From an uncultured Candidatus Saccharibacteria bacterium (GTDB lineage: Bacteria; Patescibacteriota; Saccharimonadia; Saccharimonadales; Saccharimonadaceae): a stretch of 33,806 nucleotides of DNA. Below, piece after piece: positions 1 to 3,171 of this stretch (positions within the stretch are counted from its first letter, which is position 1; every line of letters starts with the position of its first letter). The position numbers were made by a program, and so were the translations under genes. The notes under the pieces are model-generated. The model did no database searches and was not told the origin of the DNA. It was given only the letters and a program-made list of their open reading frames with translations. Location of the stretch: assembly GCA_947302125.1 (NCBI GenBank), contig CAMYUL010000007.1, forward strand, positions 1 through 33,806, given 5' to 3'.

Positions 1-1965
1 TGTACTCTTCCTACCTACACCTTTACAGACGAAGGTACCTATACTTATCCAATTATTCTCTCTATCCCAAGTTACAGCAAAACATATTCCAATATAACTC
101 TCGCAGTAGAATATGAAGGCATCCCAGCCTTCTGGTCCATTAGCAAGATGCAAGACATGACTCCAGAAGTCTGCTCCTCCGTCTACACTCCAAACAATAC
201 CATCTCCATGACTGACGAGAACATCATCACCAAGGCCCGCTTCATGGCTGGAGACTACAATGTTAATAGTGACTACTCCTCCCCACTCGTCCCAGAAACC
301 ACCCTAGTAGACGACCGTGATGCCGATGGCACTGGTACTAAGAAGAGCTACAAAGTCAGAAAACTAGCTGATGGTAACTGTTGGATGGTAGATGCCCTAG
401 AATACGACCTTCTAGCCCTCTACAACAATGGTAAACGTGGCATCGGCTCTAAGAATGATGGTTCCACCTTCGAGATGACGGATGAGAATCTTGCGAGTGG
501 CGTAGCTGGTTATTATACTACTACGGCCGACGTCTACAACTATGTCATTAACCCTAATACTAAGGCACTGACTAACATTACTAGGTATAGTTATCTTGGC
601 GATGTTACTGGTCAAACCGAATACTACTACACCTGGACAGCAGCCACTGCTGGCCAAGGCTCCCAAAGTGATGCTACAGACAGTGTCTCCGTCGACGGCT
701 CCATCTGCCCAGCTGGCTGGAGACTCCCTACTAACTACACTGACACTACTAACCAAAACATCAGCTGGTCTGCTCTAACTAATGCTTATCTAGGTATTAT
801 TACAACCCCCTATACCGATACCGGTTACCAGACCCTAGAACAATACCCAATTAACCTTTACCGCGCCGGCTACGTGGGCTCTGGTAGCCAGAGCTCCACC
901 GCAGCTACCGACGGCCGCTATTGGTCCTCTATAGCCCGTACTGCTAACCTCGGCCACGCCTTGTACTACGGCACGTCCTACGTCACCCCTCAGAACTACC
1001 ACACTAAGTACAGCGGTTTACAGATACGCTGTGTAGCCAACCCTCCAGAAAAGACCTTCTGGACTATCGGTACTATGCAAGAAATGACCCCAGGAATCTG
1101 CGCTACGGTCTACACCCCAACCAACGCCGTCTCTATGACCGACGAGAACATCATTACTCTAGAAAGATACCGAAACGGTGATTACGATTCCGTAACCAGT
1201 GATAATTCCTCTCCGCTCGTCCCAGAAAGAACCTTGCTTGATGACCGTGATGCTGACGGTACTGGTACTAAGAAGAGCTACAAAGTCAGAAAACTAGCTG
1301 ATGGTAACTGCTGGATGGTAGATGACCTAGAATACGACCTTCTAGCCCTCTATAACAATGGCAAACGTGGCATCGGCTCTAAGAATGACGGCTCCACCTT
1401 CGAGATGACGGATGCTAACCTTGCAACTGGCGTAGCAGGATACTATACTACTACGGCTAACGCCTACAACTACGTCATCAATCCTAACGCTAAACCACTA
1501 ACCAATATAACTAGGACTAGCTACCTTGGCGATGTTACTGGTCAAACCGAATACTACTACACCTGGACTGGCGCCACAGCTGGTCAAGGTTCCCAAACCA
1601 ACACTAGCGGCACCATCGATGGCTCCATCTGCCCAGCTGGCTGGAGACTCCCTACTAACTACAATGACACTGCTAACCAAAACATCAGCTGGGGTGCTCT
1701 AACTAATACTTATCTAGGTATTACTACAAACACATCTACCACTACCGGTTACCAAACCCTAGACCAATACCCAATTAGTCTTTACCGCACCGGCCACGTG
1801 TACTCTGGTAACCAGGTTAGTGCTACCTACGGCAACTATTGGTCCTCTACAGCCAGTGGTGCTAACTATGGCTACTCCCTGCGCTACTACGCGTCAGGCG
1901 TCACCCCTCAGAGCTACTACTTTAAGTACTACGGTTACCCGCTACGCTGTGTAGCATCTCGTTAG
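1..1965 (+). CDS. Secreted FISUMP-repeat surface protein, 5' truncated by the window edge
   Basis: The frame is open from base 1, so the real start and signal peptide lie upstream; 654 codons are visible, ending in TAG. After about 43 residues of beta-sandwich-like sequence come two homologous units (about residues 44-346 and 353-654), each starting with FW(S/T)I and M(Q)(D/E)MTP, followed by a Cys, DDRDADGTGTKKSYKVRKLA, DGNCWMVD(A/D)LEYDL, SICPAGWRLPTNY and a terminal YWSS...RCVA. The DGNCWM, GWRLPT, YWSS and RCV signatures are those of the FISUMP (Fibrobacter succinogenes major paralogous) domain, which is related to formylglycine-enzyme/C-type-lectin folds. This is probably a cell-surface binding protein; the ligand is unknown. 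The second halves of the units differ in a DGR-like manner (see findings). I am confident of family and frame, not of role. Confidence 0.85.
   Translation, partial: CTLPTYTFTDEGTYTYPIILSIPSYSKTYSNITLAVEYEGIPAFWSISKMQDMTPEVCSSVYTPNNTISMTDENIITKARFMAGDYNVNSDYSSPLVPETTLVDDRDADGTGTKKSYKVRKLADGNCWMVDALEYDLLALYNNGKRGIGSKNDGSTFEMTDENLASGVAGYYTTTADVYNYVINPNTKALTNITRYSYLGDVTGQTEYYYTWTAATAGQGSQSDATDSVSVDGSICPAGWRLPTNYTDTTNQNISWSALTNAYLGIITTPYTDTGYQTLEQYPINLYRAGYVGSGSQSSTAATDGRYWSSIARTANLGHALYYGTSYVTPQNYHTKYSGLQIRCVANPPEKTFWTIGTMQEMTPGICATVYTPTNAVSMTDENIITLERYRNGDYDSVTSDNSSPLVPERTLLDDRDADGTGTKKSYKVRKLADGNCWMVDDLEYDLLALYNNGKRGIGSKNDGSTFEMTDANLATGVAGYYTTTANAYNYVINPNAKPLTNITRTSYLGDVTGQTEYYYTWTGATAGQGSQTNTSGTIDGSICPAGWRLPTNYNDTANQNISWGALTNTYLGITTNTSTTTGYQTLDQYPISLYRTGHVYSGNQVSATYGNYWSSTASGANYGYSLRYYASGVTPQSYYFKYYGYPLRCVASR
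844..1029 (+). other. Putative hypervariable segment of FISUMP unit 1 (DGR-like)
   Basis: This segment precedes and includes the YWSS...RCV terminus of unit 1. Compared with unit 2 (1768-1947), in the 40 codons from 910 to 1029 there are 21 differing codons; 19 change the amino acid and 17 of those keep the third base. Typical pairs are gac/tac, cgc/aac, cgt/agt, tac/cgc, ggc/tac, aac/agc and agc/tac. That is the pattern expected if adenines of AAC/AAT template codons were randomised. No reverse transcriptase or template repeat is visible in the window. Confidence 0.5.
1768..1947 (+). other. Putative hypervariable segment of FISUMP unit 2 (DGR-like)
   Basis: Counterpart of 844-1029 at the extreme C-terminus of the protein, which is the usual place for a DGR variable region. 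It is rich in Tyr, Asn, Ser and Gly codons ending in C or T, flanked by the invariant YWSS and RCVA blocks. Confidence 0.5.
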
Positions 1966-3034: not shown

Positions 3035-3155
3035 AGAACTAAACGCAATAAAAAATCTCAGTGCATATCAAGGCTGAATCATAGTCAAGATGACAACTTT
3101 AGTGTCATCTTGACGATTCACCTAGCACTGAGATTTTTTGATTGCGTTTAGTTCT
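3035..3155. repeat. Long nested inverted repeat LIR1 after rpsG, likely terminator
   Basis: Outer arms 3035-3064 and 3125-3155 match over 30 of 31 positions (one bulged C). Inside, TGAATC/GATTCA (3075-3080 / 3115-3120) and a perfect 12-bp stem (3084-3095 / 3103-3114, 7-nt loop) continue the fold into one long hairpin. The descending arm contains T6 after a GC-containing stem, so it can terminate rpsL-rpsG transcription. It does not resemble a simple short intrinsic terminator. Confidence 0.85.
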
Positions 3156-3171
3156 AGCAACCTACCTGTGC

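Follow-up and report, generated by a model that had tools for sequence, protein, structure and literature searches.

The DNA examined here (the window) comprises the first 33,806 nucleotides of contig C7 in a Saccharibacteria-type assembly (G000), which consists of 673,495 bases in 13 contigs and is 88.55% complete. The open frame at the start of the window contains two FISUMP units in tandem, as indicated by HMM matches to Pfam Fib_succ_major (E 3.9e-12) and TIGR02145 (E 4.3e-17), and each unit carries a variable region (VR) (Table 1). The VR boundaries were defined by the homogenized silent sites in ten copies from the same genome and by a 221-nt template/VR match in a related genome, G363, which starts at the same motif as the window VRs. 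Only 6 bases separate VR2 from the stop codon, and it therefore lies at the 3' end of the gene. VR1 is internal to the chain, yet it likewise closes the FISUMP unit to which it belongs. The conserved 3' block of VR2 is almost invariant at the VR 3' end among the ten copies, and the blocks of both VRs are candidate homing-initiation sites.

Table 1. Features of the FISUMP target gene in the window, with the evidence for each
Feature	Position	Strand	Evidence or remark
Target gene (variable protein), 654 aa	1..1965	+	HMM matches; 5' end lost at start of contig C7
FISUMP repeat unit 1	127..1050	+	Unit-to-unit comparison
FISUMP repeat unit 2	1051..1962	+	Unit-to-unit comparison
Variable region VR1 (LYRAG...RCVA), inside chain	856..1038	+	Silent-site homogenization in ten copies; G363 match
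Variable region VR2 (LYRTG...RCVA), C-terminal	1780..1956	+	Silent sites in ten copies; G363 match; relatives' templates
Conserved 3' block of VR1 (ATACGCTGTGTAGC)	1024..1037	+	Candidate homing-initiation site
Conserved 3' block of VR2 (CTACGCTGTGTAGC)	1942..1955	+	Candidate homing-initiation site

Intact paralogues of the gene (e.g., the 944-aa protein on C1) start with a hydrophobic N-terminal segment, and therefore the proteins of the FISUMP family are, judging from their sequences, probably exported or anchored. With respect to a C-type-lectin fold for the variable residues, a PDB sequence search with the FISUMP unit gave no match, and an AlphaFold2 model of the unit built from four sequences was of low confidence (mean pLDDT 40.5) and was discarded.

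The initial annotation, which proposed that this gene is a DGR target, had compared positions 910–1029 with 1828–1947 and counted differences at 21 of 40 codons, 19 of them non-synonymous and 17 of these 19 keeping the third base; these counts were reproduced exactly. The differences at codon positions 1, 2, and 3 numbered 16, 12, and 3 in this variable segment, which is the reverse of the third-base-rich pattern observed in the 225 codons upstream (27, 23, and 67, respectively; Fisher p = 1.3e-6). Two details were revised. The description of the first halves of the units as nearly identical in DNA was overstated, as the nucleotide identity upstream is ~83% and reaches 96% only in the best 75-base stretch (352–426). 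In addition, the variable segments had been drawn too short, and their true extent is ~856–1038 and 1780–1956.

The footprint extends beyond the window pair and was seen again in ten copies of the same genome. FISUMP domains were located at 16 places in the assembly when the variable segment was used as a DNA query, and at 17 by the domain profile. These 16–17 domains lie in ~14 open frames, which sum to ~9,400 codons and amount to ~4% of the assembly, and one gene each on C1 and C3 likewise contains two diversified units. The copy number is probably a lower bound, because the assembly breaks inside FISUMP target genes, with at least 5 of its 26 contig ends falling within them. Such breaks are seen on contigs C1, C5, C7, C10, and C11. 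The end of C5 and the start of C12 share a 60-base overlap (98% identical) within repeats and may join, and the first 5,000 bases of C12 contain an open frame of 1190 aa, in which tandem repeats and a diverged FISUMP domain were seen.

In the codon alignment, variation in the hypervariable columns falls on positions 1 and 2, and position 3 is mostly one base, C or T. For a core of ten copies, which includes both window units, the silent difference was 0.111 in the VR versus 0.255 upstream, whereas the residue difference was 0.443 in the VR versus 0.170 upstream, and the third base was kept in 81% versus 59%, respectively. Column permutation gave p = 2e-4 for both the silent and the third-base contrasts, values that are optimistic because the core was split off after inspection of the pairwise values. 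When all 16 copies were averaged, the silent-site contrast was flat (0.32 versus 0.32). The remaining six of the 16 aligned copies lack the shared-template signature (silent difference 0.491, third base kept in 41%), and are older, drifted, or differently templated. The combination of low silent and high residue difference in the core VRs is what would be expected if a single template overwrites them repeatedly with errors at A only. This shared-template signature indicates that at least 10 domains, including both in the window, were fed by one template or near-identical ones.

An all-A template was predicted from the copies in the window's genome and used as a query on same-genus genomes. The query found A-rich repeats adjoining DGR-type reverse transcriptases (RTs) in these relatives, and the translated repeats, which read like NYWSSTANN.NNAYNLNFN.SNVNPQNNNNKYNG, correspond to the template expected for the FISUMP family. 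A template of the window's own genome, if present, would encode something like NLYRAGNVNSGNQ..NYWSS...NNNNKYNGNQLRC. The relatives' RTs contain the motifs IGNL[TS]SQ and YVDD. In the PDB, they are most similar to 8ub7 ('Reverse transcriptase', 328 aa, E 2.7e-39), which is the BPP-1 DGR enzyme, and the matches that follow are of the group II intron type (E 6e-11). As judged with the RT profile, this RT is present in 82 of 144 same-genus genomes overall, the closest relative among them, and in 35 of the 36 genomes with a strong template match. A scan of the GTDB genomes returned three loci only, and a scan of IMG/VR returned no relative.

The same-genus genomes contain 28 cassettes with both RT and template. 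For all 28 (L047, L036, and 26 other loci), the template is on the strand opposite the RT gene, 24–215 bases beyond its 3' end. The RT is immediately preceded, on its own strand, by an open frame of 300–400 aa (L047:4268–5197 and L036:3999–5195, both on the minus strand), which possibly encodes an accessory factor. The corresponding frame of G363 had no match in NCBIfam or PHROGs, and that of G175 exhibits, by eye, a helix-turn-helix-like segment at its start.

For G363, the closest relative seen (76–87% in DNA), the target, the open frame, the RT, and the template all lie within 5 kb. The template and its own VR, compared over 221 bases, mismatched at 21 of 57 A positions and at 1 of 164 non-A positions. 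For G338, one RT matching the whole profile, one full RT/template cassette, and at least 11 dispersed targets were observed. The 11 VRs in the same register exhibited mismatches at 216 of 549 template A positions (39%) and at 84 of 1445 non-A positions (6%; p = 1e-69), and the VR adjacent to the cassette at 21 of 51 and 0 of 143, respectively. G363 and G338 thus have an RT, an adjacent template, and a target VR that differs from it at A, all within the same genus.

To relate these templates to the window's genome, 26 relatives' templates were aligned to its own VRs. The mean heterozygosity of the nucleotide columns was 0.54 at template A versus 0.27 elsewhere (p = 4e-12), and the number of residue types per codon column was 7.6 at AAY versus 2.95 elsewhere (p = 7e-9), although some bias towards A at the variable sites is possible in both comparisons, as the templates were retrieved with a sequence predicted from the tested copies. 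The 26 templates belong to other species and are not themselves derived from the tested copies, their RT-adjacent position was not a selection criterion, and the test is independent of the split into ten and six copies. The relatives' templates, together with the silent sites shared by the ten copies, provide proxy evidence that the changes are confined to template adenines and that the rest is reset to the template.

The initial annotation had called for a search of the genome for a DGR-type RT and a template repeat, and neither was found in the 88.6%-complete assembly. The Pfam model RVT_1, a relative's RT protein, and the genus RT profile all gave no match to the assembly. The matches to the predicted template in the assembly were the coding FISUMP copies and one 15-base, chance-level match on C4, and a scan of the window for a template-like pattern was also negative. 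The gene neighbors of the G363 cassette were located at C7:14799–16028 and C10:17356–17537, with no cassette adjoining either. As grounds for giving up its reading, the initial annotation had named two findings, both of which would be needed: the lack of an RT and template, and a lack of variation at these codons among relatives. The former was observed in this 88.6%-complete assembly, but the codons do vary among relatives. The gene is classified as a DGR variable protein; the assembly, in which neither an RT gene nor a template next to an RT was found, is not classified as one with a complete DGR.

The RT and template of the organism are likely to be present but unassembled, having fallen in the assembly gaps. 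A cassette near FISUMP repeats could easily be dropped, given that five or more contig ends fall within genes of this family. Among the genomes matched, the window's genome shows the strongest template match, yet it is the outlier without an RT. The alternative that the family is a DGR relict, in which the RT and template were recently lost and a fossil repertoire is now only drifting or being shuffled by recombination, appears rather unlikely, but it accounts for several of the observations. It agrees with the negative searches across 673 kb and beside the two G363-type neighbor loci, with the drift already seen in six copies, and with the silent difference in the core VRs (0.11), which exceeds the 0.01–0.07 observed over most of the VR in five G338 copies. 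There is also a precedent in Treponema denticola isolates that have target genes without an RT or template (PMC4891356). However, the assembly is 88.6% complete and is broken at the target genes themselves, and the RT is kept both in the closest relative and in nearly all of the genomes with strong template matches (35 of 36). A separate same-genus genome, G263 (95% complete), yielded twelve candidate matches to the predicted template and no RT, and would thus be, after the window's genome, another candidate relict.

Gene conversion or cassette shuffling between paralogues is very improbable as the source of the variation. Paralogues are many, contigs are broken at repeats, and conversion could homogenize silent sites; however, because it copies existing variants, it should lower the residue and silent differences together, whereas here the residue difference rises to 44% and the silent difference falls to 11%. 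Gene conversion may act in addition to a DGR. Strong diversifying selection on an ordinary lectin-like family with biased codon usage and no retroelement is scarcely credible, since, although the third positions of the family are rich in C/T and the variable sites lie in a putative binding face, selection would neither homogenize the VR silent sites relative to the adjacent sequence nor direct the variability to the positions where external, RT-linked templates have A. Codon bias or diversifying selection alone, which the initial annotation had listed as alternatives, leave both of these features unexplained. The silent-site homogenization, the rising residue difference, and the match to template A led us to reject gene conversion, codon bias, and selection alone as main causes.

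Overall, the window gene is very probably a DGR variable protein in a large family of remote targets, and the RT and template of its genome are likely to lie in the assembly gaps. The original proposal, a DGR target possibly with two variable regions in one chain, gains support from tests that do not depend on the unit pair on which it was based, namely the ten-copy footprint with its homogenized silent sites, the retrieval of RT-adjacent repeats by the predicted template, and the variability at template A. In the proposed mechanism, a DGR-type RT would copy the template-repeat RNA with random errors at adenines, and the cDNA would replace the homologous VR at the end of each FISUMP domain. 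AAC/AAT template codons would become NNC/NNT, and every other position would be reset to the template. The targets would be the dispersed family of ~14 surface-type genes with 16–17 FISUMP domains. We consider the chances evenly balanced that all of these dispersed domains, several of them tandem and together ~4% of a ~0.7-Mb genome, are diversified in trans by a single DGR or by a few whose templates are near-identical, as an antibody-like hypervariable surface repertoire in an episymbiont.

Saccharibacteria are reduced bacteria, and those that have been cultured live on the surfaces of other bacteria; the organism of the window is probably host-dependent. The DGR system is presumably still active, and the variable tips may recognize ligands on phages or host cells. 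A large family of randomly diversified binding domains, which are probably exported, is a candidate means to match changing hosts or to evade phages, and G338 and G363, with their complete cassettes, make the diversification idea testable.

The relatives' RT resembles that of the Bordetella phage BPP-1 DGR in sequence type, and A-specific mutagenesis is common to both systems. In contrast to the same-strand layout of BPP-1, the template in all 28 same-genus cassettes follows the 3' end of the RT gene but is on the other strand; inverted parts have been described in other cassettes, although this is much rarer than the BPP-1 layout (PMC6642488). In the T. denticola DGR, a single RT and a single template serve as many as seven dispersed, paralogous target genes, in which the VR differences lie mostly at template adenines (PMC4891356). 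The family described here shares with it the remote paralogous targets and the occurrence of target genes without an RT or template, and differs from it in the larger number of VR domains (16–17 here and 14–15 in G338), in the FISUMP-domain targets, and in that here it is an assembly that lacks the RT and template.

Fib_succ_major is already among the Pfam domains of predicted DGR variable proteins from human microbiomes, with FISUMP/DUF1566 targets (PMC4159848). That study lists nine proteins of this kind, with no mention of TM7/Saccharibacteria, whereas the family here is genome-wide and has tandem units. For Patescibacteria/CPR, a DGR clade 2 of cellular DGRs restricted to Patescibacteria has been described, in which the VR is typically C-terminal in multi-domain proteins (PMC8144416); that survey was unable to see remote targets, which dominate here. 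The DGRs of Thiohalocapsa PB-PSB1 likewise have several VRs per protein and act in trans, but there are nine DGR loci with conflict-system targets (PMC10907252), whereas here the targets are probably exported FISUMP proteins. Several VRs in one protein have been described before (PMC10907252, PMC6642488). A literature search, with subscription papers mostly outside its range, found no paper on a FISUMP DGR family in Saccharibacteria. What stands out is how many diversified domains so small a genome contains, together with the tandem-unit targets; the mechanism itself is known.

Elsewhere in the window, a long inverted repeat (agaactaaacgcaat...attgcgtttagttct) at 3035–3160, terminator-like by eye, sits between the ribosomal S7 gene and a rubrerythrin-like gene.
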